Shown here piece by piece: positions 30,887 to 64,000 of a stretch of 64,000 bases of DNA. Position numbers and translations under genes: made by a program. This DNA is from Odontesthes bonariensis (taxonomy: Eukaryota; Chordata; Actinopteri; Atheriniformes; Atherinopsidae), in assembly GCF_027942865.1 (NCBI RefSeq), contig NC_134524.1, positions 6,726,036-6,790,035 of the forward strand, in the 5' to 3' direction. Position 1 is the first letter of the stretch, and each line of letters begins with the position of its first letter. A model generated the notes under the pieces. That model had not been told where the DNA came from. It worked only from the letters and a program-made list of their open reading frames with translations, and did no database searches.

Positions 30887-33800
30887 ATGGAGGAATATCA
30901 GTATCCAATGTTCTTTGAGGCAAAAGATCTAACAGACAGAGAGAAGGAGAAGATCCGGAGACACTTCCAGAAAAAAAGAGACTCTGGAGGAGGGGATTGT
31001 GGATCGATTGAAAAGGTTGGAGGTAAAACATATCGGATATGCTTCAAGGAGAAGGAAGGTAAGAGTTAAAAAGCTTAACGAAAACATGGATGCCTGTTAC
31101 AGTTGGATTGTATTTTTAATGGCATGATTTTAGATCAAGAAAGGGTTCTGACGAAAGGAGAGCACACCGTCTGTTTTCCCCATGGAGAGTTACATCTGAC
31201 TGTTAGAGCGACCTGTTCCCCTCAGGGCACAGATGAGTCACACGCCACTCATTTACAGGTGAGATCATACTTCAGTATAATTGAACTAAATCCTAAATAA
31301 AATGATAAACAGATACGATATCTCTTCATTTAATGAACTGCAACATGAAGCCGTTTTTGTTCCAGAAAGTTTGGCATATACTTGCCGAGTACAGCAGAGG
31401 ATATGTGTCTTTAGAAATGTAGAAAAACAACAGTAATTCTCATGAACCTTTCATAAGAACAAAAGAAGATTTGTGTAACGAGAGCAGGAAAAACAAAGAC
31501 GAGCTGACTGAAAAGGAAAACTGGCCGAACCGGTTCTTAATGCAACAACACAAAGGTTACAGCAGAGCAGCCTGACTGCCGTCAATCTGTTTAACCCTCC
31601 TGTTGTCAAACGTGACCCACTACCATGTTTAACTGTAGAAAAAATACCTTAAACTATCTTTTTCTAACTTGAAATGTTATGACTTTTCCTAAAGGGAGCC
31701 CATCATTAGAAAAAGTCAGACTTTATTTTTGTTTATGTTTCCATGTGGGCTGTGCACCACTAGGGTACAAAGATTGTCTTATGGGTCATTTTTGACCCGT
31801 GAATTATAAAAACATTTAAACACCAGAAAAAAGTTCATTTTTTTTTCCCTTTCAATATAATTAATTCAGAAGTAATTTCTTCACATTTATATAATAGCAA
31901 TAATAAACCTTTATTATGTAAAAGAAAAGTGAGAAAACAAGAAAACTGTTGGTCCAACTGACAGTTCGTTTGTGGTAGAAAAAAAAAAAAAGTGTAATCC
32001 TGAAAACTGGTTAGTGTCTTTTTGTATTGTGTAACAAAAAATACATGATAAAAAATGTATTTAATTGAGTTGAATAGATAAATAACAGGTGGTTTCACCA
32101 TACAAAATAGATTTTGGATTTAAAATTCAATTAAGTTGCTTTATTTTGGGGCTTTGGTAGGGCGGGTCAAACAGAATGTTAAGACCGCACAAGGGTTAAA
32201 CTACTAATAATCCTGTTTTCCCTTTAAAACTTTTCTTTTTTAGGAAGGAAAGGCAAAAGTTCTCGAGAAGACATTCAAGCTCGACATCTTCCTCCTGTAC
32301 TACCTGCGAGACAACCCTAAAGCATTCAAATGGGTGCAGAAGCAGCTCGACTTAATCGGCTGCAATGTGCACTTGGATTTCGATGAAGAGGAGGCAGTGG
32401 TGAGGGGAGACATGGAGAAGGGGCCTGGAGGAGCTGTTGGTGCTGCAGAGAAGTGGGAGCAGCAGGTGGATCGGATCTTCATGGGCCTCACCGAGCGCTA
32501 CCTCTGCCATCACGTGTTTGAGCCGAGTCGTGTCAGAAAGGTGATGCAGGACCGCTCCTTTGTGTCGGATGATGTCAGAGTGTACACAGAGAGCGGCTAC
32601 GCTGTGGTGGTGGGAGAGGTGGAAGCTGTGAAGGAGAAGACCGCGATGCTGGAAGAGACCGTCCCGATCCGCAGGGAGCTTCCAGTCATGGAGAAGCAGT
32701 TCAAACTGGTAGAAGAAGTGTTCAATCGAGAAATGTTTGTTCATTGTCCAGAAGTCAAAGTCATCAGAGGCGCTGACGGGATCGTCTTGGAGGGACCTGA
32801 CGTGGAAGTGAAGGCAGCAGCTGAGAAGCTCGATGAACTGATCAAGAAGATAAAAGAAAAGAGAGTCCAGCTTCCAAAAGACTTGTTAACCTTCATAACA
32901 ACCAGCGGAGCCGTCTCCAAGTACCAGGCCCGCTTCCAGCAGACCTTCAGAAACCCCGTTTCCCTGGACGTGGGCTCGGACCTGGTGCTGTCCAGTCTGT
33001 CCCCTGCAGGTCTGGAGGAGGCTGAGGCAGCGGTGCTGAGAGAGCTGAGTGTGGCCGATGAACCGCTGCAGGGCGCCGCAGCTGCACCTCCAGATCTGAG
33101 CCCAGTGAAAGAGATCCTGATCAGAGCCAAGAACCAGGCAAACCGGGAGGAGTTCAGAGTGGACTTCAGCTTTACTCCAGCAGCCGGTGGAGGTCCGGTA
33201 ACCAAAGTGCAGCTGGTGGGCTTTACTGAACATGTGAACAGGCTCAGAGAACTTCTCCATGACTACCAGATGAATCAGGCTTCAGCTCAAGAAGTGCTGA
33301 ACCTGTCGCATCCTGAGCTGGTTGACTGCTTTGATCAACTCTTAGAGATGATCGGCATGAAGCAGACCAACGTGACCTTGAGAGCCTCTCATCTTCCACA
33401 GCCATGTGTGCTTGTGTCTGGTCCCCGTTGTCATGTTCAGCAGACCCATCGGGCCCTGATGTCGGCTCTCGCCGGTCTGACGTCTGACACTCTGGTTCTA
33501 GACGGACCAGGAGCTCTGCGCTACTTCCAGGGTGACGGTAAGGTGAGCAGGGAGCTGGTTGAGAGTTCCTGTCAGGTTCTTATCAGGGAGCAGCAACAAG
33601 CTCCTTCTGGAAATTCGAAAACAGCTCCCATAAAGTCACAGAAAAGCAGCTTCAGGTCCACCATCAGAGCTCCGAATACAGCAGCTGTCAACAACACAAC
33701 CCTGAAGATCAGACTTGGCAGTTTGGAGGATGAGCAGGTTAGACAACTTTAGGAGAATTAGACAGCCTCATTAGTGTGATATTGTACTCATTATTATTTC

Positions 33801-42660: not shown

Positions 42661-45600
42661 ATGCGGAGTGTGGCTGGGAAAGTGAGTAAATACCAACAAC
42701 ACTTGTTCCTTCGGAGTTCAGGAGGGTCAGGAATCCTCTCCGGGAAAGCAGAGACTCTGTGGAAGGTGACAGGGAAACAGAGGCTGTGGAAGAAGGAACT
42801 GCCCGGTGAGTAAACACTCTCTGCTCAGACTCAGCAAACAAAAATATACAGAAACACACGTGTACGTTCATACATATAGTTCCAATGACATCCAGATGTT
42901 GACCATGTTGGTCGTCTTAGCATGACAAAGTTATCAGAATCATCTTTAGGTGTATAGATTAAAACTTTGTCCAGCAGGTGGTGCAGAAATATAAGTAAGG
43001 GGAACTTTATTCAAGGCAAGGCAAGTTTATTTGTAGGGTTAGGGGTTAAATTCCAAGTTCTTTACAGCTACATAAAATCACAAAAAGGCAATAAAAGCAT
43101 ACAAAAAAAAAAAACATAAACAATAATCATTAATTAATTAAATTAAAAGCTAAGCGTGCAGATAAAATACTTTCAGGTGTCATATGCACAGCTAAATAGA
43201 ACTGTTTTCAGCCTGGATTTAAACATTGTCAGAGTTGAGGCCTGTCTCACATCTTCTGGAAGACTGTTCCAGATTTTAGGAGCATAAAACTGAAACGCAG
43301 CCTCACCATGTTTAGTCCTGACTCTGGGCACCAGCAGGAGACCCCTCCCTGAGGTTCTCAGAGCCCGAGTTGGTTCATATGGCTCTAACATGTCAGAGAT
43401 GTACTTTGGCGCTTGACCGTGAAGAGACTTGTACACAAGCAGAGCTGTTTTAAAGTCTATTCTCTGAGCGACAGGAAGCCAGTGCAGAGACCTGAGCACT
43501 GGACTAATATGGTCGTATTTCCTGGTTCTAGTCAGGACTCGAGCAGCAGCGTTCTGGATGTACTGCAGCTGTCTTATAGCCCGTTTAGAGCCCAGTGAGC
43601 AGGCCGTTACAGCAGTCTAACCTGCTGGAGACAAACACATGGATCAGTCTCTCTAAGTCTGGTTTAGACACTATTCCTTTGATTCTGCCAATGTTTTTTA
43701 GATGGTAAAAAGCTGCTGATGTTACAGATTTAATGTGGCTGTTAAAGTCCAATATTACCCCGAGATAGTTAGGTTTTAGAGAGAGTCTCAAGGTGACTGA
43801 TAACACTTTCTCTTTGTTTCTGTGGGCCACAGACGATGAGTTCAGTTTTGTCTGAGTTTAGCTGGAGGAAATTGTTTTGCATCCACACACTGATCTGTTC
43901 GATGCAGCGACACAATGTATCTACAGGCCCGTGTTCTCCTGCGGACTGGTTTTCAGACTGTTTTTTGTTCTTTGCAGAAAGGAGGGGGGAAATCTTGGAG
44001 AGGATTCTCATGATTAAAGAGCCGGGGATGAATCCCAGCCGTTCACCTCGCAGTCTCATGTGCACAAATGAGCCGTGCACCAGTCAACAGGTGAGTGCTT
44101 AAAACTGTGAGTTTAACCCTCCTGTTGTCCTGCGGGTCAAAAGTGAGCCACTACCATGTTTAGCTGTAGAAAAAATACCTTAAACTATCTTTTTCTAACT
44201 TGAAATGTTATGACTTTTCCTAAAGGGAGCCCATCATTAGAAAAAGTCATACTTTATTTTTGTTTATGTTTCCATGTGGGCTGTACACCACTAGGGTACA
44301 AAGATTGTCTTTTGGGTCATTTTTGACCCGTGAATTATAAAAACATTTAAACACCAGAAAAAAGTTCACTGTTTTTTTCCCTTTCAATATAATTAATTCA
44401 GAAGTAATTACTTCACATTTATATAATAGCAATAATAAACCTTTATTATGTAAAAGAAAACTGAGAAAACAAGAAAACTGTTGGTCCAACTGACAGTTGG
44501 TTTGTGGTTAAAAAAAAAATAAAAATAAAAATAAAGTGTAATCCTGAAAACTGGTGATTTTTGTATTGTGTAACAAAAAATACATGATAAAAAATGTATT
44601 GAATTGAGTTGAATAGATAAATAACAGGTGGTTTCATCATACAAAATAGATTTTGGATTTAAAATTCAATTAAGTTGCTTTATTTTGTGGCTTTGGTAGG
44701 GCGGACAAGGGTTAAAACTTCAAAATAAAATGAAAAATATTTGAGATTTACATAAATGAAACGGACTAAAAGTTTCCCAAATTTCTCCGGAAGGAATGCC
44801 GAGTCACAGAGAAGTGTTCCTCACTGGTGGAGGAAAAGTTTACCCGATTACTTCATACTTATCATCTCCCAAAAGTTGAAGATCTCAGAGGAAACACCGA
44901 TGCAATCATCTCGAAAGGCCCGGGACAGAAGGTGCAGTCAGGAGCTGCCAAACCCGATGAACCCATTGATAAAGTATTGATTAAGAGAGTTAAGCTCCCT
45001 CTGGATCTGATGAACTTTATAAAATCCAGCGGGGCCGTCTTCAAGTACCAGACTCGCTTCCACCGGAGCTTCAAAAGTCCTGTTTCCATAGAGGTGACGT
45101 CGGACCTGGTCCTGTCCAGCCTGAGCTCTCAGGACCTGGATGAGGCTCTGGCAACGGTCCTGAAGGACCTGAGCGTGGAGATAGAGAAGCTGCAAGGTGC
45201 TGCGGCCGTTCCTCCAGATATAGACCGAATAAAAGAAATCCTGATCAAAGCAAAGAACGACGCGAACCGCGGCGAGCTGAGAGTGGACGTCAGCTTCGTC
45301 CCGGGACTCTACGCAACCACGGTGGCCAAAGTGCGGCTGGTGGGCTACTCGGATCACGTGAACAGGCTCAAAGAGCTCCTTCGTGACTACCTGCTGCATC
45401 AGATTTCCACTCGAGAGGAGCTGATTCTGCCGCATCCTGAACTGGTCGACTGTTTTGACAAAGTCTTGGATCTGCTCGGCGTGCAGCAGATGAAAGGGAC
45501 TTTAAAAGCTTCACATTCTCCACATCCACACGTGCTCGTGTCAGGTCCCCGTCGCCAGGTGCAGGAGACCCGCCGCAGCCTCTCGGCGGCTCTCGCCGGT

Positions 45601-48600
45601 CTGATATCAGACACTTTGGTCCTCGATGGTCCGGGGCCTCTGCGCTACTTTCAGGGTGACGGGAAAGTGAGCAAAGAGCTGGTTGAGAGTTCCTGCCAGG
45701 TCCTTATCAGAGATCGACAAGGTGAGAACTGCACTTTAAAGGGATAGTTCGCCTCTTTTGACATGAAGCTGTATGACATCCCATACTAGCAAGTCCGGCT
45801 AGTTGGCTGGGGCTTAAAAAATAAAACGTTTTGCTTCTCAAAACAATATGCGTTCAAAAGAGTAATACATTTGCATCACAAAATTGTTCTCCAGGAAAAA
45901 GTCAGACCTCACAATCGCTTGGCCCTTTTTTCTCTCCCTTCGTATCACTGCCTGCTGTGTAAATCGAAGTGCAGACAGAGCAGTAAACACCGTAACAGGT
46001 GCGGCTGTCGTCAGACGGCAGCAAGCAGTGATATGAAGGGAGAGAAAATAGAGCCAAGCGATTGTGAGGTCTGACTTTTTCCTGGAGAACGATTTTGTGA
46101 TGCAAATGTATTACTCTTTTGAACGCATATTGTTTTGAGAAGCAAAACGCTTTATTTTTTAAACCCCAGCCAACTAGCCGGACTACCTTCATCAACGGGG
46201 GTAAGAACATGTTCACAAATGATATTGCTAATATGGGATGTCATAAAGCTTCATGTCAAAAGAGGCGAACTATCCCTTTAACGCACCGACACAGCTGCTG
46301 CAATCCACACAAATACAAAAACAGTCTTCTTCTTGATTTATTTATGCTCTAATATTTGCACCATCTGCCTGTATTTTGACTCACTTTGCAGTGGCGCTTC
46401 CCCAAGTGTTGCCCCAGAGATCAATAATCTCCCACCTGAGCATCCTCAGATCCAGTTCCACCTGTCAGCAGTCCTCCCTCTTGTTCTTGGGTCTACGCCG
46501 GGAGAGCGTCAACGACGCCATGAAGAAGATGAAGAGTCTGTACCAGGCTCACTGCTCCTCGCAAACCTTCACCAAGGTGGAGCTGGCAGACCTCACCCAG
46601 GACGACATGAAGAACTTAAAGAAGCTTGCAGAGGCCAAAGGTCTCTACGTGCAGGAGGGCTGGCTGAGCCTGGGCGGCTTGACGGTGAGCGGGTTAAAAG
46701 ATGGAGTCAACCAGGTGGTGCAGATGCTCCACACCATTACTCCCCTTCGGAGAGAAATGAGAATCAAAGAGGAGGAAATTCTCTACCCTCGTGTGGCCTG
46801 GTGTATCCTGGCGCTTAACGGCAGCTGGGAAAGACTCCCCAAAACGGCAAACTATAACCTGGAGAATCAGAATGTCACGACGGCCATAGTGGACGCAAAG
46901 GGAATGGTGTGGACTGTGGATCTGAGAAGGACGCAGGCCAAAAAACTAATAACCGGAGAGACGGTGAAGCTGAAACGCCTTCAGAATCTGCCAGGTGAGA
47001 GGAGCAGTGACATGTTCTGACTTGATTTAACAGCTTTGAGTCTGTCTGTTTCATACTGTTGTTCTGTTTCACAACGAGAGCCACGACACACTCACAATAT
47101 TTGACTTTGACCCACTGAAATGCATGTATTAAAGGGATAGTTCGCCTCTTTTGACATGAAGCTGTATGACATCCCATATTAGCAACATCATTTATGAACA
47201 TTTTCTTACCCCCTGCTGCGTCCTGTGAGCCGAGTTCCAGCCTCGTTTTGGTGTTGACGAAGGTAGTCCGGCTAGTTGGCTGGGGTTTAAAAAATAAAGC
47301 GTTTTGCTTCTCAAAACAATATGCGTTCAAAAGAGTAATACATTTGCATCACAAAATCGTTCTCCAGGAAAAAGTCAGACCTCACAATCGCTTGGCCCTA
47401 TTTTCTCTCCCTTCATATCACTGCCTGCTGTGTAAACCGTGCAGACCGAAGTGGAGACCGAGCAGTAAACACTGTAACAGGCGCGGCTGTCGGCAGGCGG
47501 CAGCAGGCAGTGATGCAGCCACACCCTCCACATGCAAAAGATCACAGGTTTAACAGCTTTGAACACGGCTGTGGAGTCACAGTATTCTGCTCATGACACT
47601 GTGGACGTTTTAAAGTTTGCAAATGTAAAGTAAGATGTCCCGTCTGATTACAGGATGTGTCAGGATGGGGGTTTCCAGACTGATAGAATAGTAACCCTTC
47701 AGTTACTGCGAATACATGCATTCTGATAAGATATACAAATGTAATTATGTTTTAGAAAGGATTTAATGGCAGCTGTTTAAAAAGGAAAGCTTGCTTCTCA
47801 TTCCTGGAGTTACACATTTAAGCTTTGCATTTAAAATGTTGATGCTGAGCCCAAATGGAACAGTAGTTTTATTTGCCCCTGTATTTTAGCTAAATTTCCA
47901 GTTGATTTAAGCTCAGTTGCTAGATTTCAAGCCTCCTGAGCATCTTATGTTATTCTCTCTGTATCCTCACTGACTGATCCACCTTTCTTTGGCAGACTTC
48001 ACTCTTCCCCTGTACTGGGACAACATGGCTACTGATGAAAACCTGCGAGTGGTTCCACTGGATCGTTCCTCTGCAGAGTACAGGACTGTCCAGGAGGCAT
48101 TTAAAAAGACTGTTCACAAAAACATTTTGAAGGTGGGAGGGGGCTCTCACTAGCTTCCATTTGCACCATCCTTTGTCTACAAAATGTACCATCAGTGCAT
48201 TTATAATCTCACAGAAAATGTACCATCAGTGCATTTATAATCTTACAGAAAATGCATTTATAATCTCACAGAATTGTTTATGTCAGAGCAGTGATACCTC
48301 ATAGTTTGTATCATGCATGCTCGGGCTCCTCCAGTGTGGTAAAACAAATTAAAATCAGCATTTTTCCTGCTCATACCTAACCCTAACCTGTTTCCTTCCA
48401 GATTGAGCGTTTGCAAAATGTTCATCTGCGTCGTGCCTACGAAGTGCAGAAAAAGCACATTTCTGAAAAGAACCGACGGGAAGGAGGAGCCGGTGAGAGG
48501 CTTCTGTATCACGGCACAAGCCTGGAAAACCGCGACGCCATCGAGACAAAAGGCTTCAATAGGAGCTTTTCTGGGAAAAACGGTAATGTAAATGTATTTT

Positions 48601-51352: not shown

Positions 51353-51364
51353 GAAAGTGAAACT
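51353..51364 (+). promoter_or_regulatory. ISRE before PARP14-like copy 3
   Basis: GAAAGTGAAACT is an exact match to GAAANNGAAACT, the interferon-stimulated response element. It lies 65 bp before the start codon. Mammalian PARP14 is interferon-inducible, so this fits the gene. Confidence 0.75.
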
Positions 51365-51428: not shown

Positions 51429-54400
51429 ATGGATGAATACCAGCATCTGTTGTTTTTTGAGGCCAAAGATCTGACAGACAGAGAAGAGGAGAAGATTTGG
51501 AAATACTTTCAGAGAAAAAGAGACTCTGGGGGAGGCGAGTGCGCAATGATTGAAAACGTCGGAGGCGACAGATATAAAATACGTTTCAGGGAAAAAGAGG
51601 GTAAGCGGTGACGTTTAGTTTTTAAAATGTGAATACTTGAGCAGTATTCATTTGAACTGAGGATTTCTCGTGTTTTTTGGTGTTTTTTTTATAGACCAGG
51701 AAAGGGTTTTGCAGAGAAAATTTCACTCCATTTGTCTTCCTGACGGAGAACGATGTCTGATCGTCAGCCGAACCAATTCACCACAGACCCAGGATCAGCC
51801 GTTAACGAGCCAATCACAGGTGAGCTTCAGCGGTTATCGAGCCAATCACAGGTGAGCTTCTGCCGTTAACGAGCCAATCACAGGGGAGCTTCAGTTCCCC
51901 CTTCAACCATCGGCAGCTGCTTGATTGATTCCGGTAAAAAGCAGCTCCACTGTCACCTGTCAGACCGGTATCACGGTGGGCCTATTAAATCTAACTTAAA
52001 GGGATAGTTCGCCTCTTTTGACATGAAGCTGTATGACATCCCATATTAGCAATAACATTTATTAAATTTGACTTACCCCCTGCTCCGTCCTGTGAGCAGA
52101 GTTCCAGCCTCGTTTTGGTGTTGATGAAGGTAGTCCGGCTAGTTGGCTGGGGTTTAAAAAATAAAGCGTTTTGCTTCTCAAAACAATATGCGTTCTAAAG
52201 AGTAATACATTTGTATCACAAAATCGTTCTCCAGGAAAAAGTCAGACCTCACAATTGCTTGGTGCTATTTTCTCTCCCTTCGTATCACTGCCTGCTGCCG
52301 CCTGCCGACAGCCGCACCTGTTACGGTGTTTGCTGCTCGGTCTCCACAGCACGCAGTGATACGAAGGGAGAGAATATAGAGCCAAGCGATTGTGAGGTCT
52401 GACTTTTTCCTGGAGAACGATTTTGTGATGCAAATGTATTACTCTGTTGAACGCATATTGTTTTGAGAAGCAAAACACTTTATTTTTTAAACCCCAGCCA
52501 ACTAGCCGGACTACCTTCATCAACGTCAAAACGAGGCTGGAACTCGGCTCACAGTACGCAGCAGGGGGTACGTCAAATTTAATAAATGATATTGCTAATA
52601 TGGGATGTCATACAGCTTCATGTCAAAAGAGGCGAACTATCCCTTTAAAAGATTGAAATGTTTCCAGGTGGGCGGGTCGGCCTCTCTTTGGGCGGCACGT
52701 GGCTGCAGGGTGTGTTGTTTCTCTCGCTCTTCCCGACAGAAACCCGCTTTAGTGCCATAAGGAAGTACCTTACAGTAATTATATAACCTTTGATTGATTA
52801 AAATAGAATCTGAGGTAGTTTCTAATGTTTTCTGAACAACTAATAAAAATGATGAACATTTTACATAAATAAATTATTTTCTATTCAGTCGGGATTTTTA
52901 GCTGTTTCTTGGTACATTCTTTCTGTAATCATAATTTGTTTTCATTTTAGTGATTTATTATCTGGTTTATCTGTTTGTACTAGTTTTTTTTATCTAATTT
53001 TACTTCTCTTTATGGTCAGATTATACACTTTTATGATTTAAGAAGAGCACACTTTGGCCTTTCTTTTATCCTCCCTACTCTTTAGTCTCTTGTGTTGAGT
53101 TTTTGCTTGATTGTTTTTAAATCAGAACACAGTTTATTCGTGCTTTGGGCTTGGTGGGGGGGTTATATCTAGGTTGTAGAATAAGGTGGGGTGGGGATTT
53201 AAAGCATTTTTATTTTTTAAATGGCTCTTTTGATGTTTTTTCTGCAAGGATATTTAATTTCAATAATATAGTTGACTTAAAAACAGAAGAAATTCTCAAA
53301 AGTGAGGTGTTTTACTCTCAAACTAGGGCTGGGCAACGATTAACATTTTTAATCTAATTAATCACATGATTTCCCTGATTAATCACGATTAATCGCATTT
53401 GTATGCAAAATCCAAAAATGAATCCAAAAGTAGCGTATAGCTTTTAGCATTTAGCTTTATTTTAAATGTGCTGCCATATGAATGAAAGTGCCATAACATT
53501 TGTTGTGCAAACACACTTTTAACATCAGCATCTTTCTGTAGTTTTTATGTAGAAGCCTCGCTCCACTGTTTGTTTCCTTGAATGACTTGCTGCTATCAGT
53601 TGTGTGTTTTGCCTTGAAGTGATATTTTAGACTGGAACTACTACGCTGAGAAGACAATTCAACTTGGCAGTGTTTACAGATGACTTTGGTTCTGTCGACT
53701 CCGCCGTCTGGAAGAACTTTAAAATGAAAATGGCCGAGTAAAAGCTCCGTACCCTTCTCCATGTTTGGTGGATCCGCCGATTACTTTCTATTAGCAAATA
53801 CTTTCTTTTCCGGTTCCGCAGCAGACAGCAACAGACTTTTACAAAATAAAAGCCTGTGAGCAACAGACTTTTACAATAATAAAATAAATAATAAAACAGG
53901 GGTGGTCCGTGGCGTAGTGGGTTGAGCAGGCGCCCCATGTACAGAGGCTATAGTCCCAGGGGCGTAGCACCAAATTTGGGGCCCCAGGAACAACCACTAC
54001 CATGGACCCCGCCCCCCGCTATTGCATTGCTTGATACCTTAGCAAATATTGCACATGCACATTCTTTTGTTGTTTCATTTATTTACTCATAGCAACAGAA
54101 AAGGCATTACAACATTGAAGTGGGGATTCCTCTGAGCTTGTTTACAAAAAAAAGAGAAATGCAGTCTGATTTCTACACTCATGAAAAGAACTGAACTGCA
54201 GAAATGAACATGGAAAAACGCAAAACAGGCTTTCACAAGTTGTAGGGAAAGTTGTAATTTATATTCCACTAAATGCCCACTGACGAGTCTTTTTTGTGGC
54301 AAAATCACGGATGAGGTGCTTGAAGTCCAGCTGTCTTGCCAATTGACTTTCAATGGAGAGAAGGGCAAGGCTGTTTAATCTATCCTGGCTCATTGTTGAC

Positions 54401-57400
54401 CTTAAATAATTTTTCACCAGCTTCATCTTGCTGAATGCTCTCTCACCACCAGCAACAGTAACAGGCAGCGTACAGAAGATCCTTAATGCAGTGCATATCT
54501 CACCAAAAATGCTTTGTAGCTGCAGGTCATATATTGAATTAAGGAGTTGAAGAGGGAGCAGATTTGGAGGAAATGTGGCCTCATATACTGCATGCAAGTG
54601 CAGCATCTCATTTTCAAATTCACCCGAGAGGTCTTTTGGGTAAATACTTGCCAGAGCTCTGCTTGTCAGTTTGATTTTTTCTTCTGACATGTGCCCAAAT
54701 TTCAGAAGAGGTGCAAAAGATTCACAAATAGTGGCTGTGGTCTGAAACCTTGCACTTAAATCGCTTATGATGCTGTCAATTGCGACATGAAACACATTGT
54801 TTCTGAAAAGCACCTCAGCACTAGTTTGATGCTCTTCATCCCTTGACTCATCAGGCATTAGTTTACGTCTCCTTTTACGCCTCTCTTCTATCTTAAATTG
54901 GGCTGGGATTTCCATGGCTTGGGCTACTGAGGAGGCTTCTGAAAGAAGTGAGTCCCATTCATTCCGGATGTCTTGGACTTCCTCCTGCAGGGCCTTGATG
55001 TTTGCTGCCTCAGTAGCCAAGGAAATATTCCCTGCCTGAAGGATCAGGTTGCGACGTTCTATGCACTGTAGAACCTTGACCCACACAGTGAGGAGGACTA
55101 TTGCGTCAAAGGACTTAAAATATTTGGATAGGCCAGTTGCCTCAGACCTGGCTTCACTGGTGAGGCTGCATGTGTCTAAAACACACTCTAGGGCATCCAG
55201 AATGGATGGCAAGTGATTGGCCACAACTTTCACAGCAGCTATTCGAGATCCCCATCGAGTGTCTGACAAACGATGAAGCGAACACCCGGTTTTCCCCTTC
55301 AGGATTGCCCATCTTTCTGGACTAGCACTGAAGAAATTGTACAACCTGTTTATGGTGCCAAAACATGTTGCAACCTCATTTGACGATTCTGCTGCATGCA
55401 CGCCTACTAAGTTGAGGGTATGTGATGCACAGGGGGAGTATGTTGCAAATGGATTTTCTTTGAGTATTTCTGCTTGGACGCCTTTGAATTTCCCTGACAT
55501 ATTTGCTGCATTGTCGTAACCCTGACCTCTGCAGTCCTCCAGTGGTATACCACACTCTTGCAGCACACCCTGTATCATGTCTGAGATGTCCTTTCCTGTC
55601 TTCTTGTAGAAATCTTTAAACTGGCAAAATCTCTCAAATATTTTCCAACTTTCGGCATCTTTGTAAACGTACCTCAGTAAAAGGACATTCTGCTCTGTAT
55701 GCGAGATGTCTGGTGTTGAGTCACATTTTAAAGAGTAGTAAATTGCTGCTTGTCTTTCATCCATTATGGTTTTCAGTACTCTTTTACCACAGACATCAAT
55801 GAATTCATTCTGTGTCTCAGGACTCAGATAATGTGTTAATCTTGGCCCTTCTTTCTTTTGCCTTAATTTCTGCAAGTGCTCTTCCAAAATTGGATCATAA
55901 CGTGCCAGCAACTCTATAGTGCCTAGGAAGTTCCCGTTGTGTACATCATCTAGATGCGTGGTTTTGCCCCTAAATGGAAGGTTTCTTGATGCTAAATGAA
56001 GGGTCACATCCAAAAGCCTCTCGAGAATCATTGTATTCTTTTCGATTTCTGCCTGTATTTGTTTCTGTATGTGACTGTCAACTCCTGTTCCAGACAACAA
56101 TGCATTCTGAAGGCTTTTCCACTTCAAATAGCATTCCTTATGAGGCAAGGATGTTTCATGTTCTGGCAATCTTGTGTACATTGCTCTCCAAATAAATTGA
56201 GACATTTTCATACCATCCTTACTGAGAGCGCTCTTAGATGGCCTTTTTAACTCAAGAGAAAAGAGAAGGCATGGAATGCAATGCAGAGCGTTGGCGCTTT
56301 CACTACAGATAAGCCAATCTCTTCTGATTTTCTCTCTGCCATTGGCCGACTTCGCAAATTGGAGGTAAGACGGAAATGGTTTCCCTTCCTTATCCTTTGC
56401 AGTAATTATATTACTACCTTCTTTGCTTGCCAATCTATGTACTATTGTTTCTCTGTCTTCATTAGTTAAATTCTCTGGCCATAATGCTGGATCCTCTGGC
56501 AATGGCACACACTCCTTAGTGGTGTCCTGACCACCTCCTGATATGTCATCATCCTTCTTGCCTTCCTCAGAATAGCCCTCTATGCTTTCCTCTCCTTCAC
56601 TTGAATCATCCCCATCTTCCATCACATCTTTATCTACCTCCTGGACCTCTACAACCACAAAGCATACAGATATATGCATGCAATCTATTTGATATGACAG
56701 AACAGACATTGTTTTTTTTAAATTATAAAATGTCCTAGTCTTTCACATTACCAGTTTTATAATGAAATGTATCATATTTATAGATGTTAAAATCACTTCA
56801 TCACTAGGTATAAATAAATATCATTCATATTTGTTTAGAATCTATAATCTTGTTTTAGCAGTGTTTCTCAACCTTTTTAAGTCAAGGCACCCAGAAATGT
56901 AGGCCTGCTTAAGATTACATTAGCTAAAATAGGCTCACCTTCTCTCAAGTTGACACCACTTGCAGCTGCTGCGGCATCATCACATTCTGTGACATTTTCT
57001 GAAACTGAGTGGGATTCATTTTACAAATTAGCTTTGCTAACATTTGGACAAATATTTGAACCAACATCGACCCTATGTTAGGCTTTTGTGACACTTGTAT
57101 ACTGCCCTATAAAGCAAAAAGGCAGTAAATACCCAGAGTGCAGAACTGAGAAAAAGGACTTTAAAGTTATCCTGTCGTCCATCCTAAGCTGTTGTAGGTA
57201 GATTAATGGACATGTGTCAGTTTTGTTACTTTATATTAGCTTATTCTTTGTGTATATTAATCCTCATTATTGATTTGATGTTTTACCCTTTTTTGCAGTT
57301 ACTGTGTTCTTGCTTCGTATAACTTCCCAAAACTGTGGCACCATACCAAGGAAAAAGGCAGTAACTGTAGATTCTTCAAAAACTATTTGGTTATAACTTG

Positions 57401-60400
57401 GGCTCTTGGTGTGTTAGATACACTATATCTGTATCTGTATTTGTACATTGCAAAATAATTTAAACCATATGCATGATTCTCACTATGCATGGTTCCCCGG
57501 AGTTCCCCTTTAACTTTGTAGCAATATATAGGCAAGTTAGGCTAACTCCAGTTCAACAGAGCAAAACAAAATAATTTTGTCTTAGTTTTTTTAAGGCTTT
57601 TCAAACTCTTTTGATGATAACTAAGATGAAAAAGTTGATGATTTTATGTGGTACAGTATATGTTTCAGTAGGCTAATAAATACAAAGTAGTGAATGAAAT
57701 TAATAGATGCGACACATATTTCAAATTAGTAAATATTTAATAATAATTTGAGACAACTAAGACAACTGCAGATGGAAATTAGCTCCTGAGCTCAATCTGG
57801 CATATTTACAACAAATTATTTTCCCCACTTCCATCACAAATACACTAATAAATGAAAAACTCTACAAGAATCTTTGGATTAGGAAATCGGAATAGGAATA
57901 ATAATAATTCAGTGGAGGCCACTGTTTGAGTAAGCTACAAACTGAGATCATTTATAAGTGGTGTTGTTTTCTATAACTGCTCCAAGAAAGCTTAATCAAC
58001 CCTAAAACATCTAATAACAGCTGTATTGGGATACACGACATCGTTCACCACTAGAATAGATGATGCTTTGTGACTTCATGCTAACAAGCTAACTTAGCTA
58101 ACTTCTGTAAATAGCGGACATATTCTTCAAACAGCGGCTAAACAAAGAGTGTTTTAAGTTGAAGCGGACATGTGTCACGTTAAAGAACAGCTGTTACACC
58201 GACTGCTTTGTTTATTGGCAATATATTCCTGCCGGACAACGCCATGAATGATTATGAATAAAATGAAAATGCCGTTCATGTAATTAGACGAAGAGACAGA
58301 TAACGCTCTTGGCTGCTTGAATTTTGTGGGATAACTTTATACATGCCTTTCGTCTTTAAATATTTTACCACCGCTGGTTGGATTAAAACTGTGTGATGTG
58401 AACGACAAATCGATGACATGGCATTGACGATGATGTGAAGTTACAGAGGATAAAGTTACAGCTAAGAGCAGGGAGGCCCGGGAGCCGGTAAGTAAACGCT
58501 AGAAGCTGTATTACAGCTGTATGACAGCTGACAGGTGTTTATATTGTGATTGCTCATTTCTAAATGCTGAATGTCACTGTTACTTATCATAGTCCGGGTA
58601 CTTTCTTTTCAAGGCCAGTTCAACCATCATATTTCCCCTGGCTTGTGCCATTTAATACAAATGTGTGTGAAGTTAGAAACGTAAATTTGCCGGTAGAATG
58701 TCAAAACAGTCGCGTGAGGATGGGAAGCCCGCGAAATCGGCCACAGCTGTCTGTGTTCACCATGGTAACAGTAACTTCACTGTGCGGCAACAGGGGTGTT
58801 TTTACGTGAAGTAAAACAAAGCATAAGTACAGTAACTGACATGAAACAAAGCAAGAATACAGTAATGGATGTTACTGTATTCTTGCTTTGTTTCACCAGG
58901 GCTTTTTGCAGTTACTGTACAACCAAACGACTACCATTTTTCTCCAAAACGACACACATTTGAGATAAGATCTTTTGTCACATAACGAAGGATGCCTTGA
59001 ATGTCATGAAAATGATAACTCATTTTCGTCCAAAAATGCAGTTACTGCCTTTTTGCTTTGTAGGGCAGTATAGGCTAATAGTTATTATGAAAATAAATAC
59101 ATTTAAGACAAATATGGCTTCTATATCACAATTATGTGGTAGCCAACAAAATGAGAGATTATTTTTTTAATTATTTGACTTCGGCTGCTATCACAGTGGT
59201 ATGCAACGAAATGGGAATGGGATAATCAGTTACTGTAGGCTGTAATTTTGACATTTGGGCTCACCTTTCTTGGTAAAGAAATCAGTCAACAGTTGCTTTC
59301 CTTCATTTTGTTTCCTCTGTCTCTCTTGCCTTTCTTTTCTTTTCTGAAAACCTGATTTTTTTTGGATGACATCTTTGCATTTAATGCCTAATAATGAAGT
59401 GAGTGAAATTGATTGCGCATGTACAATCAAAAGTTCGCCAGAGGGCGGACTAAACCAATGCGCACTGATAATGGGGGTGTCTGATATAGATTATAGCCTA
59501 TTTGCAGGCTGGGATATACATTTCAACAGATATATTTCCAGATAACATCGGATTTGCATAAATTACCAACATATATTAACATTATTTAAAAAATAATTTT
59601 TAAAAAACGTAAGAAGAAAATTTCCCTTGGGGGCCCTCCCAGGGGCCCCCCCTGTAGGCTGGACCCTGTGAATCAGTCTGACTTTTCCCCCCTGTTCGAC
59701 GCCGCTGTATAGTCCTCACTGCAGCTGGCCCCGGTTCGAGTCCCGCATTGGACGGCCCTGTGCTGCGTGTTGTTCCCCCTCTCTCTGAACTTTCCTATTC
59801 ATTAAAGGCACAAAAGCCCCAAAAAATATATCTAAAACATTTTTTTTTTATTAAAAAAAGAATAAATAAATAAAACTGCGTCAATGCGCAATAGAATATT
59901 TAATCGGCGTTAAATAATTAACGAGTTAACGCGCCCAGCCCTATCTAAAAGACAAGGCAAGGCAAGGCATCTTTATTTATATAGCCCATTTCATACCACG
60001 GGCAACTCAATGTGCAGTTGCCTGTGGTATGAAATGTTGTTGTTTTGTTAAAACAACAAAAACACTATCAATCTCTGTTGTCTCAGAATTGGGCTGGACT
60101 CATGATCCACATTGATGTTCATTCTTTTTCTTTTTAGATATGGATTAAAGAAGACACTAAAAGTCTTGAGAAGAATGTCAATCTTGACATCTTCCTCCTG
60201 TACTACCTGCGAGACAACCCTAAAGCATTCAAAGTGTTAGAAAAGCAGCTCTCCTCAATCGGCTGCAATGTGCACTTGGATTTCGATGAAGAGGAGGCAG
60301 TGGTGAGGGGAGACATGGAGAAGGGGCCTGGAGGAGCTGTTGGTGCTGCAGAAAAGTGGGAGCAGCAGGTGGATCGGATCTTCATGGGCCTGACCGAGCG

Positions 60401-63309
60401 CTACCTCTGCCATCACGTGTTTGAGCCGAGTCGTGTCAGAAAGGTGATGCAGGACCGCTCCTTTGTGTCGGATGATGTCAGAGTGTACACAGAGAGCGGC
60501 TACGCTGTGGTGGTGGGAGAGGTGGAAGCTGTGAAGGAGAAGACCGCGATGCTGGAAGAGAGCGTCCCAATCCGCAGGGAGCTTCCAGTCATGGAGAAGC
60601 AGTTCAAACTGGTGGAAGAAGTGTTCAATCGAGAAATGTTTGTTCATTGTCCAGAAGTCAAAGTCATCAGAGGCGCTGACGGGATCGTCTTGGAGGGACC
60701 TGACGAGGAAGTGAAGGCAGCAGCTGAGAAGCTTGATGAACTGATCAAGAAGATAAAAGAAAAGAGAGTCCAGCTTCCAAAAGACTTGTTAACCTTCATG
60801 ACAACCAGCGGAGCCGTCTCCAAGTACCAGGCCCGCTTCCAGCAGACCTTCAGAAACCCCGTTTCCCTGGACGTGGGCTCGGACCTGGTGCTGTCCAGTC
60901 TGTCCCCTGCAGGTCTGGAGGAGGCTGAGGCAGCGGTGCTGAGAGAGCTGAGTGTGGCCGATGAACCGCTGCAGGGCGCCGCAGCTGCACCTCCAGATCT
61001 GAGCCCAGTGAAAGAGATCCTGATCAGAGCCAAGAACCAGGCAAACCGGGAGGAGTTCAGAGTGGACTTCAGCTTTACTCCAGCAGCCGGTGGAGGTCCG
61101 GTGACCAAAGTGCAGCTGGTGGGCTTTACTGAACATGTGAACAGGCTCAGAGAACTTCTCCATGACTACCAGATGAATCAGGCTTCAGCTCAAGAAGTGC
61201 TGAACCTGTCGCATCCTGAGCTGGTTGACTGCTTTGATCAACTCTTAGAGATGATCGGCATGAAGCAGACCAACGTGACCTTGAGAGCTTCTCATCTTCC
61301 ACAGCCATGTGTGCTTGTGTCTGGTCCCCGTTGTCATGTTCAGCAGACCCATCGGGCCCTGATGTCGGCTCTCGCCGGTCTGACGTCTGACACTTTGGCT
61401 CTAGACGGACCAGGAGCTCTGCGCTACTTCCAGGTAGGGTGTGTATTGGCAAGAATCTGGTGACACGATACAGGGGCAACGATACGATATATCGCGATAT
61501 ATTGCGATACTGTAGGAACAACGATATATTGAGTTTCTTAGAACAACTGTAACAACAAAGGGATCTTTTCCATCCAATCCCCATTCAGTCACAGCCTCAT
61601 TCAGTAACGCTGCTATGTGTTTCCCTGGTGACTGTCACTCATGGCTCAGGTTTACAGTACATGGGACTTGAGGTTCATCTATGTGATGTGCTGTAAGAGT
61701 TACATACGATTCAGTGGCCCTCGAAGTCCAAGCGTCGCATGTCAAAGTGAGTCTTCTCTTGACTTCTCTGTCCGTGATGTGTTGTCGGAAAGGGACGGTG
61801 TAACGGGGCTCCGGTGTTGTCATCATATTACGGAATCTCTCATTCTCCACAACACTCAGGGGGCGCATGTCTTTACAAATAAAAGACAGTACTGACTGTG
61901 TTATCTTGGTTGAGGTCGCTGGTATTTTTGAAAAGTTAACATCTTGAATAGTTCTTTGAGCAGGATCCACTCGTTTCACGTTAGCCTGTAATGCTACATT
62001 GTCGTGGTGTCTCGCCACATGTGCTCGCAAATTTGTAGTATTGCCCGAGTACTCGACTCTGGCATTGCAGAGTTTGCACACCGCATGGCTCTTGTAGTCG
62101 TAACTGCCTTCCTTTGTTTTGGACCCAAAATATGCCCAAACATCAGCTTTAAAAGCTGCTGGAGCCTCTCGTCCTCAGCCATCGCGGGTGAACTCTTATA
62201 TGTATTTGTGAGAACTGATCTCGCAGGATTTCATTGTTCCTTTTGGTGCGGAGGACATAATGACTGCTGCCAACTAGAGGCCGGAGGTTTAATTGCAACA
62301 CAAAAATGAACAAACAACGTGAATATTTGCATGTTAATTGTTAATAAAAAAAATCGATACAGTGTCGTTGAATATCAATACGGTATCGTCAAATAAAATA
62401 TCGCGATATTTAAGTGTATCGATATTTTCTTACACCCCTACTTCCAGGGTGACGGTAAGGTGAGCAAGGCACTGGTTGAGAGTTCCTGTCAGGTCCTTAT
62501 CAGGGAGCAGCAAGACATTTCCTCTCGAGATGCGACAGCCAGACCAAGAAGCATCAGCAGCATCACACCCAGACCCTCTGCTGACATATCCAACAAAATC
62601 AACCTAAAGATCAAGCTTAGCAGTTTAGAAGATGAGCAGGTTTGATGGGTTCTTATTACCTTCTACTTCTCAGAATCCACAGAACAGCAGCACAGTACAG
62701 ATACTCATTTTCAACCATTCTTTCACAGATGAATGTTTTAGTAGCTCCCATGCTGAACAAGCAGCTGACTTCTACAAAAGTCTGTACAAGTCTGCTGAGG
62801 AAAGGAGGCAACGCGGTCCAGTCAAAGTTTGACTCCATGGCAGTGAACCGCACCCTCGGCCCTGGTGATGTTCTGCAGGTTGATGGGCCTCCATCTCTGG
62901 GCTGCTCGAAGATCTTCTTCATAGAGTGTTCACCTTGGGATGGTTTCAGAGGAAACAGTGTGCAGGTGAGGAGGAAAACTTTCAAAGATTGCACTGTTTC
63001 TGCTCTTACTGAAGCAGTTATGAGAAGAGTGACTAATTTAGCTTGGTAAGTAAGCTTTGAAAACGCGTCACTTCTGTCTCATAGGCTCTGGGTAAGGGGC
63101 TGAAGACGTGTTTGGACCTCTGTGTCCAGCAGGGCTTCAGTTCAGTGTCCATACCAGTTATCGGACCTGGAGTTGTCTTAAGATACCCCCTGACTGAAGC
63201 CATTCAGGTGCTGGAGGAGACCATTCGCCAGTTTGGACTATCTCCATCCTTTGGGTGTCTCTCCACCATCCACATCGTCATTAAACCTGGTTATCCTGAC
63301 TCTGAGGAG
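51429..63309 (+). CDS. parp14-like: PARP14-like copy 3: RRM, KH-like repeats and macro-like region; split by a hAT element; runs past window end
   Basis: Exons 51429-51600, 51695-51819, 60138-61433 joined to 62448-62639, 62729-62965 and 63085-63309; phases and lengths match copy 1 (exons 1, 2, 4 and 5 are identical in length). RRM-like domain with QRKRDSGGGEC. The KH exon, without the insert, is 1488 nt (496 codons). The macro-like region begins MNVLVAPMLNKQLTSTK and, as in copy 1, lacks the GDI/VNxAN loop. If the insert is not spliced out, the frame stops at 61463 (after FQVGCVLARIW). If 61434-62447 is spliced, the frame is intact. Intron 2 is 8.3 kb of nested transposons. Near-identity of 60258-61434 to copy 1 contrasts with diverged flanks. 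Perfect ISRE at 51353. The next exons, and any WWE/PARP part, lie beyond base 64000, so it cannot be said whether this copy is catalytic. Confidence 0.75.
51801..51895 (+). repeat. 32-bp tandem repeat copying an exon end and splice donor
   Basis: Three units starting GTTAACGAGCCAATCACAGG at 51801, 51833 and 51865. Each includes the end of exon 2 of copy 3 plus its donor (CACAG|GTGAGC); the third unit has lost the GT (CACAGGGGAGC). Confidence 0.9.
51996..52648. mobile_element. TTAA foldback element, copy P3 (intron 2 of copy 3)
   Basis: Full-length copy with both TTAA ends; longer arms than P1. About 650 bp. Confidence 0.85.
53457..53762 (-). pseudogene. hAT transposase N-terminal BED zinc-finger fragment
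   Basis: The minus-strand frame has VICKHCQVELSSQRSSSSLK and YHFKAKH, the C-x2-C ... H-x-H pattern of BED fingers from ZBED1-like hAT transposases. The catalytic region is missing. Confidence 0.7.
53899..53956 (+). mobile_element. tRNA-derived SINE, left part
   Basis: Begins GGGGTGGTCCGTGGCGTAGT with an A-box-like TGGCGTAGTGGG. It continues at 59708 after the hAT insertion; the B box GGTTCGAGTCC is at 59733-59743 and the tail reaches about 59830. A SINE, not a functional tRNA gene. Confidence 0.75.
54259..59430 (-). CDS. hAT transposase, zinc finger MYM-type 1-like (2 exons, uninterrupted)
   Basis: Element-encoded transposase. Exon 1 is 59430-59265: basic KSGFQKRKERQERQRKQ then LLTDFFTKK, donor AAAG|GTGAGC, phase 1. 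Exon 2 is 56648-54259: acceptor GGTTGTAG|AGGTCC, opening with an acidic stretch (VMEDGDDSSEGEESIEG). A TTF-type finger region follows (IRRDWLICSESANALHCIPC), then the catalytic-core motifs KCDSTPDISHTEQNV and GQGYDNAANMSGKFKGVQ, and the C-terminal hAT dimerisation motif (VAGGERAFSKMKLVKNYLRS). Exon 2 alone is open for about 796 codons with no stop, unusual for a fish DNA transposon in an intron and a sign of recent activity. The exon 1 start Met is the upstream-most in that frame. A 2-kb foreign element lies in its intron (57098-59072). Confidence 0.8.
57098..59072. mobile_element. Element with TATACTGCCC ends, nested in the transposase intron
   Basis: TATACTGCCCTATAAAGCA at 57098 pairs with 59041-59072 over about 32 bp; TA at both edges. 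Inside lies a 26-bp-stem palindrome at 58839-58898 (AAACAAAGCAAGAATACAGT and complement). No transposase recognised. Confidence 0.65.
59955..60030. repeat. LINE/SINE-type tail fragment
   Basis: 'CATCTTTATTTATATAGCCC' resembles the L2-like tail; no coding part. About 110 bp before exon 3 of PARP14-like copy 3. Confidence 0.5.
61435..62440 (-). mobile_element. hAT (ZBED-type) element inserted in the KH exon of PARP14-like copy 3
   Basis: Exact 8-bp target duplication CTTCCAGG at 61427-61434 and 62441-62448. Ends TAGGGTGTG and ACACCCCTA. The minus strand carries a BED-finger transposase start (MAEDERLQQLLK, VCKLCNARVEYSGNTTNLRA, HVARHH) with one frameshift, then LTLTCDAWTSRATESYVTLT, and is internally deleted, so non-autonomous. 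Junctions form GT and AG splice sites (see findings). Confidence 0.9.
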
Positions 63310-63346: not shown

Positions 63347-64000
63347 TTAAAGGGGAAGTTTTTTTTTTTTTAAACCTGGACCTTATTTCTGGCATAAAAA
63401 ACGTTAATGTACTCACCGATAACAGTTTGGTGAAAGTCGGAAGATATTTAGATCACTGGAGATCAGCGTATATCCATATAACGGGAGAGAACAGGACAGA
63501 GACAACACAGCCTCTAAATAAGGCTTTATCTGTCTTTGTTTCACCAATACTTTAAGACCAATGAATGAATGAACGCGTACTATTGCACTGTTAGCTCAGA
63601 GCTGCCGTGTTGTTGTTATCGGGGGGCTTATAGGGGGCTTTCTACATCCGGGTCACTTGGGATAAAGTCATCGACGTTCACCGCTGCAGCATCAGCTTAT
63701 TCACTCCGTGCTCTGTGACGGTTGGCTAACTTCACATGGAGTTTGCTGCTGCTAGTTTTGTGCAACATGGCAGGTTATTTATCAGATTTTGACGACGTGG
63801 ACGACGACTTTGAGTACAATGGACGTCCTTACCGGAGTGAGCCAGAGTATATGGATGAGGAGCTCCTGGAAAGGAGGATGGCCGGAGAACAACAGACCGC
63901 TGCATGTCCTCGAATCGATGCTGACTGGTGGTGTTCTTGTGAACGATGTTATCCCAAGTGACCCGGGTGTGGAAAGCCCCCGATAGTCCCCAATAACAAC
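63347..64000 (+). mobile_element. TTAA element with P2X7-like ORF (continues past window end)
   Basis: Begins TTAAAGGGGAAG, 37 bp after the exon 5 donor of PARP14-like copy 3. 63363-63720 matches 7084-7425 in reverse complement. The right end is not in the window. Confidence 0.7.
63767..63961 (+). CDS. Small P2X7 C-terminus-like cysteine-domain ORF carried by TTAA element
   Basis: The frame from the internal Met at 63767 (MAGYLSDFDDVDDDFEYN) runs through GRPYRSEPEYMDEELLERR and DADWWCSCERC to a stop. The order acidic stretch, 'PYRxEPEYxDEEL', then WCxCxxC resembles the P2X7 intracellular zinc-binding region and the ORF at 12827-13169. An upstream Met at 63722 is in frame but adds a hydrophobic lead of doubtful relevance. 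Since it lies inside a repeated TTAA element, it is likely element cargo. Homology is recalled, not tested. Confidence 0.5.
   Translation: MAGYLSDFDDVDDDFEYNGRPYRSEPEYMDEELLERRMAGEQQTAACPRIDADWWCSCERCYPK

Follow-up and report, generated by a model that had tools for sequence, protein, structure and literature searches.

Splicing of maize Ds elements from exons is said to have been shown at the RNA level (Dennis 1988, Wessler 1991, Giroux 1994) and to be often imprecise or alternative. Here we describe a 64,000-nt stretch of the Odontesthes bonariensis genome (C24:6726036-6790035; genome of 945 Mb, 187 contigs; the whole stretch is called the window), in which a 1,006-bp hAT-type element (61435-62440) lies in exon 3 of a PARP14-like gene, termed gene C, and may be spliced out as a newborn intron. 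It resembles Ds in being a hAT element in a coding exon with an 8-bp duplication and removal as an intron - here predicted - and differs from it in that the join would be exact. Ds elements are also reported as introns in titles from the reference list of PMC3260210. According to the AGGT or protosplice model, a duplicated AG|G target yields both donor and acceptor and leaves the coding sequence unchanged (PMC3443670), which is nearly the geometry of gene C, except that only AGG comes from the target and the donor T is the first base of the element. In notothenioid fish, new introns derived from NTE elements were described for slc26a2 in 2025: the authors assign GT-AG of intron 3 to repeats of NTE-1, both direct and inverted, and the introns carry a 4-bp duplication and TGT...ACA ends, were gained after a split 17-38 million years ago and were later enlarged by a second element (PMC12357937). 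Gene C shares with this case a teleost gene and a transposon-like, here candidate, intron; unlike slc26a2, it has a single hAT insertion and uninterrupted paralogues in the same window, and it is apparently younger. Introners, finally, are DNA transposons for which the target duplication provides part of the splice sites. According to a survey (PMC9860276), their families number from 5 to >2,000 copies in a genome and serve as introns in many places; among animals and land plants they are found in only two groups, and no gain pattern is reported where population sizes are expected to be small, as in vertebrates. The gene C element, too, would recruit its splice sites partly from the duplication; in contrast to introners, it is the sole coding-exon interruption seen among 13 copies with a recognised duplication rather than one of many that act as introns.

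Mechanistically the case follows published precedents (AGGT model, maize Ds, introners, the 2025 fish case) and involves no new principle; gene C is a young, testable vertebrate candidate, and our literature search of titles and abstract openings, which had partial coverage, found no hAT-derived intron in a fish PARP14 gene. Vertebrate intron gains are described as rare in the abstract of PMC12357937, and in older gains the founding event is hard to read. At gene C the element, its duplication, uninterrupted in-window paralogues and an intact frame are all visible, so that the steps are directly testable, and a tandem cluster of antiviral-type genes might take in a coding insertion with the frame preserved.

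The insertion and its geometry are near certain and comprise the following features.

61427-61434, plus strand: left target-site duplication CTTCCAGG, whose last G makes a GT donor with the first T of the element
61435-62440, strand unassigned: hAT-type element, 1006 bp, multi-copy in the genome, termini TAGGG(G)TGT.../...CTTACACCCCTA
62441-62448, plus strand: right target-site duplication CTTCCAGG, which provides the AG of the acceptor and the base with which the following exon begins
61434-62447, plus strand: candidate new intron, 1014 nt, CAG|GTAGGG ... CTTACACCCCTACTTCCAG|G

The two copies of CTTCCAGG are identical at 8/8 positions and form the exact 8-bp target duplication that the original prediction had placed around 61435-62440; that the donor arises from the G of the duplication and the T of the element, and the acceptor from the right copy, was borne out by the GT-AG ends. 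Within these borders the element starts with TAGGGTGTGTATTGG and ends with CTTACACCCCTA. As read, the direct repeat has 11 bp (CTACTTCCAGG), because the element ends in CTA and CTA also precedes the target; the ends of other family copies show that the target duplication is confined to the last 8 bp. Element plus one duplication amount to 1,014 bp, and their excision joins ...TACTTCCAG|GGTGACGG..., the same as in an uninterrupted paralogue (A). The identity of the join with the paralogous 17-mer thus held up, while its position had to be moved from 33527-33543, as first given, to 33522-33538. Phase 0 is kept upon removal of 61434-62447 with no codon change, again as predicted.

Two homologous exons in the window lack the element.

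32244-33737, plus strand: exon of paralogue A without interruption; up to the insertion its identity to gene C is 97.8% over 1277 bp
44785-45720, plus strand: uninterrupted homologous exon sequence of paralogue B, with the site TACTTTCAGGGTGACGG at 45646-45662

Since the insertion site is uninterrupted in each of the four other gene copies found (A, B and those at C24:20.05 Mb and C7:2.77 Mb), all of which align across it, the insertion is derived. The 97.8% identity between A and C before the insertion compares with 67-81% in 7 other aligned blocks, continues for about 65 bp beyond the insertion and then ends. This tract (60159-61433 plus 62448 to ~62513, against 32256-33596) is a gene-conversion tract spanning the insertion site, with 16 differences in its ragged first 97 nt and 18 in the remaining 1,245 nt. 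In the simplest order of events, exon 3 was probably homogenised with paralogue A before the element arrived; the element shows 29 differences from the majority sequence of 19 other copies, of which 7 are private substitutions over 873 comparable columns, and this is in keeping with an insertion that postdates the conversion.

Gene C was modelled on paralogues A and B and the distant genes at C24:20.05 Mb and C7:2.77 Mb, using homology and splice consensus. With 61434-62447 removed, the model stays open across 15 coding blocks for 1,356 codons, beginning at ATG 51429 and closing with TAA 73387 (counted from the window start; positions >64000 lie beyond the window, in locus L015), 14/14 of its introns are GT-AG and phases agree. 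The parts within the window are these.

51429-51600, plus strand: first coding exon, with the ATG and the RRM_PARP14_1 domain
51695-51819, plus strand: second coding exon
60138-61433, plus strand: third coding exon up to the insertion, 1296 nt, phase 0
62448-62639, plus strand: remainder of the third coding exon beyond the insertion, 192 nt, in phase 0 at either end, with the weak native donor CAG|GTTTGA
62729-62965, plus strand: next native exon, whose acceptor outscores that of the candidate intron and is a competitor for the new donor
63085-63309, plus strand: following exon, after which the model continues beyond the window with macro and PARP domains
51353-51364, plus strand: consensus interferon-stimulated response element (ISRE), GAAAGTGAAACT; sole exact GAAANNGAAACT match in the window

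The predicted product has RRM (PF23222), macro (PF01661, two stretches) and PARP (PF00644) domains, its best solved relatives are PARP15 and PARP14, and its KH-like exon gave no match in a Pfam search. Together with the termini and BED finger of the element, these domains agree with the earlier call of a hAT element in a PARP14-like gene. That gene C is a mere fragment is ruled out by its N-terminal exons (51429-51819) and by the catalytic exons in L015. From the ISRE to the ATG downstream of it the distance is about 65 bp; because 29/100 shuffles also carry at least one match somewhere in the window, the match matters by its position.

To rate the new splice sites we compared them with native donors and acceptors of paralogues A, B and C by a vertebrate matrix, by locus-trained matrices and by U1 pairing. 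The donor CAG|GTAGGG, in which the duplication contributes the first intron base and the element all that follows, is strong: its U1 pairing energy is better than that of 23/24 native donors, it exceeds 13/22 natives on the vertebrate matrix, and with locus training it matches or beats 15/24, an equally high score being reached by 1/166 other GTs in the stretch. At the acceptor (CCCCTACTTCCAG|G) the tract comes partly from the element and the AG from the duplication; it holds 17/20 pyrimidines (native range 11-18 over 26 sites), about 33 nt are free of AG, and a branch-like CTTAC lies 15 nt upstream. On the vertebrate matrix it beats 12/25 natives and ranks second of 209 AGs in the stretch.

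On this basis we propose that a non-autonomous hAT jumped into exon 3, most simply after the exon had been homogenised with its neighbouring paralogue, and that, with a target ending in AGG, the duplication and the TA...TA ends of the element supplied both splice sites, a GT donor that is strong and an AG acceptor good enough to be used. The spliceosome would then remove the element plus one duplication exactly and the full-length protein would be kept, making the insertion a newborn intron. That gene C is transcribed and 61433 joined to 62448 is what we infer, and we judge it somewhat more probable than its opposite that such exact splicing takes place in at least a substantial share of gene C transcripts. 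The anatomy, canonical sites and intact frame lend partial support to the transposon-to-intron conversion that had been put forward.

Several observations qualify this proposal or weigh against it. Exact phase adds no independent support once the target is NNNNNAGG, because the intron, which starts at the last base of the left copy and ends at the 7th of the right, then equals element plus one 8-bp copy and phase is kept automatically. On the vertebrate matrix the donor is outscored by 3/166 other GTs in the stretch, two of them in coding sequence just past the new acceptor; strong donor-like sites there, at 62454 and 62459 (ACG|GTAAGG, AAG|GTGAGC; same bases in paralogue A), are possible alternative 5' splice sites or splicing decoys. 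The branch-like motif is near to the acceptor, which on locus-trained matrices equals or beats just 0 to 9/26 natives, depending on settings, and is matched or exceeded by 23/206 other AGs in the stretch. The native acceptor at 62729 is stronger, both on the vertebrate matrix (5.84 vs 4.56) and in 5/5 locus-trained settings. So of the initial description of the insertion as perfectly spliceable, the donor half stands, but the wording is too strong for an acceptor that is mid-range (vertebrate matrix) to poor (locus-trained); the splice-site scoring suggested at the time likewise gave a strong donor and an acceptor weaker than the next native one.

Because the acceptor at 62729 is stronger than the new one, two in-frame outcomes must be taken seriously, in which the new donor is used and the new acceptor bypassed by joining 61433 to 62729, or in which the whole of exon 3 is skipped. 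Both keep phase 0 at each junction, at the cost of 64 residues or of the KH-like region (496 residues), respectively. The donor that closes the 192-nt second half (CAG|GTTTGA), moreover, scores 0.0 on the vertebrate matrix, the lowest value among 22 native donors, and this half contains the stronger internal donors at 62454 and 62459. By U1 pairing, however, this native donor (62639) is not the weakest, 5/23 others being weaker, and bypassing would discard a segment whose end is conserved (LKIKLSSLEDEQ in C, LKIRLGSLEDEQ in A, by eye) in a stretch otherwise 55% identical over 73 aa. To our minds, bypass or skipping as the main outcome is unlikely.

The exact splicing we favour also has to be set against an ordinary knockout. 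If the element is retained, the message meets a stop at codon 541, the 10th codon past the junction and upstream of the macro and PARP parts; retained or mis-spliced, it would then be degraded, and gene C would be a very young pseudogene covered by paralogues, related copies of which (A, B) the tandem cluster does hold. The remaining modelled exons and splice sites of gene C are undamaged. With an assumed indel rate of 0.12 per substitution, a frame shift in 85% of the indels and 56 splice bases counted as essential, gene C, if dead, would be expected to have about 4.9 disabling changes at 0.8% neutral change since the insertion, with a probability of 0.008 of having none; this probability rises to 0.048 at 0.5% change and to 0.16 at 0.3%. 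As private substitutions may predate the insertion, so that the age is an upper bound, intactness in so young a case is moderate evidence only. Comparing A with C over the converted exon gives 15 silent and 18 replacement differences (dN/dS 0.36) and, past the first 97 nt, 10 silent and 6 replacement ones (hand count, scaled site numbers; Fisher p 0.0008), but such counts mix both genes and the time before the insertion. When differences are polarised with B, the gene C branch has 3 replacement and 2 silent changes and the A branch 2 and 5, 21 differences being unpolarised; this slight excess of replacements fits a knockout and gives no proof of constraint; selection on gene C after the insertion is not shown by these counts. 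Against a knockout stand the strong canonical donor, the usable acceptor, the otherwise intact modelled exons and splice sites and the ISRE in front. In addition, a random coding target yields AGG only about 2% of the time (AGG occupies 89/4,069 triplet positions, 2.2%, of the modelled gene C coding sequence), while splicing-rescued survivors in exons would be expected to be enriched for it. The original prediction's verdict of not a knockout fits the intact remainder of the modelled gene, albeit with a knockout still holding a minor share of our expectation, as a rather unlikely alternative.

That the locus is an assembly or haplotype artefact, we regard as very improbable. The analysis covered a single assembly, and a heterozygous insertion could have entered the primary contig, but the duplication is exact over 8 bp, the termini are typical of the family, the same structure recurs in other genomic copies and our gene search, in which 16/16 first-look candidates were scored, brought up no further gene C copy with an empty site.

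Related copies of the element were sought genome-wide, giving 63 matches and 56 candidates, 40 of which were scored. Family members share the terminal inverted repeats TAGGGGTGTGTATTGG / CTTACACCCCTA with small variations among copies, the window copy being one G short of the family terminus at its left end. With up to 2 mismatches, the 3' end of the family occurs 16 times in the genome and that of a sister type another 14 times; copies with a damaged 3' end are left out of these counts and AGG-flanked ones could be among them. The sister ends (CTCCCACCCCTA) are clustered, 10 at C3:33.19-35.69 Mb and 4 at C7:3.41-3.43 Mb, which suggests transport on locally amplified repeats. The 16 copies with listed 3' ends are identical to the set tested for duplications, the fragments L020, L025, L027, L028 and L031-L033 lying outside it. 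A duplication was recognised in 13/16 (11 exact, 2 with one mismatch); these include the window copy, which the terminus threshold of the duplication script had missed and whose duplication was established separately, and the three of the 16 with no recognised duplication are L002, L017 and L026. T is found at duplication position 2 in 11/13 copies and A at position 7 in 8/13, close to the nTnnnnAn targets that Ac-type hATs prefer.

The coding capacity of the window copy is small.

61635-62174, minus strand: remnant of a hAT transposase that has a BED zinc finger, open over 179 aa

A Pfam search of this frame shows that the BED finger is all the window element retains. A relative of the frame in locus L047 is 51% identical over residues 4-167, and L047 has BED, DUF659 (below cut-off) and Dimer_Tnp_hAT spread over two neighbouring frames, so that BED plus a C-terminal dimerisation domain, as in a hAT transposase, is present for the L047 relative and not for the window copy. 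Since the minus-strand frame keeps a BED finger and its relative has the hAT dimerisation domain, the window element is best classed, from its sequence, as a short, non-autonomous hAT.

An introner-type burst is rejected for this family, with 16 recognised 3' ends and one coding-exon case: the window copy alone among the 13 with a recognised duplication was seen to interrupt a coding exon. Empty-site frames were assessed for 12 of the other 15 copies. One of these 12, all with a recognised duplication, is at the margin of a kinesin light chain exon and 11 have frames of 53-110 aa across the empty site, the 3 longest of which gave one sub-cut-off match only in a Pfam search (MH1, E 0.03). None of the 12 (0/12) has a target ending in AGG. 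A single such coding insertion among 16 copies is notable, yet it is the kind of case that selection lets survive, as coding insertions that cannot be spliced presumably tend to be purged. The combination of TTACACCCCTA followed by NNNNNAGG occurs at 4 genomic places, which is chance level since the reversed control pattern gives 6, and 3/4 of these places (L035-L037) have a different subterminal sequence and lack the left duplication.

A broader reading would take the ends of the hAT group (TAGGGGTGT...CTTACACCCCTA) to be intron-ready in either orientation and gene C to be one case of recurrent, low-rate intron gain in fish. The ends would supply the T and positions +3 to +6 of a strong donor plus a C-rich tract, with the branch-like CTTAC in the orientation seen at gene C. 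If true, every insertion into a NNNNNAGG target would be born as a precise intron and burst-based searches for introners would miss such gains; we consider this generalisation doubtful.

The kinesin light chain copy just mentioned (L008, C24:6.25 Mb) had been tried as a second exonic case and was rejected, because the 152-aa frame at its empty site proved antisense; read in sense, the site is the kinesin light chain exon. Its duplication CTGGTGAG seems to span the native donor, so that the element there is in effect intronic. At this locus (L008/L034, C24:6252590-6256072), CTGGTGAG and the T of the element recreate a donor-like CTG|GTGAGT at the apparent end of the exon.

Two further mobile sequences lie in modelled introns of gene C. 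The intron 51819/60138 contains, at 54259-56742 on the minus strand, a frame of 827 aa with DUF4371 and hAT dimerisation domains, apparently a hAT transposase, and the intron after exon 63085-63309 holds at 63360-64000 what appears, by eye, to be another mobile element with an open frame starting MAGYLSDFDDVDDD.

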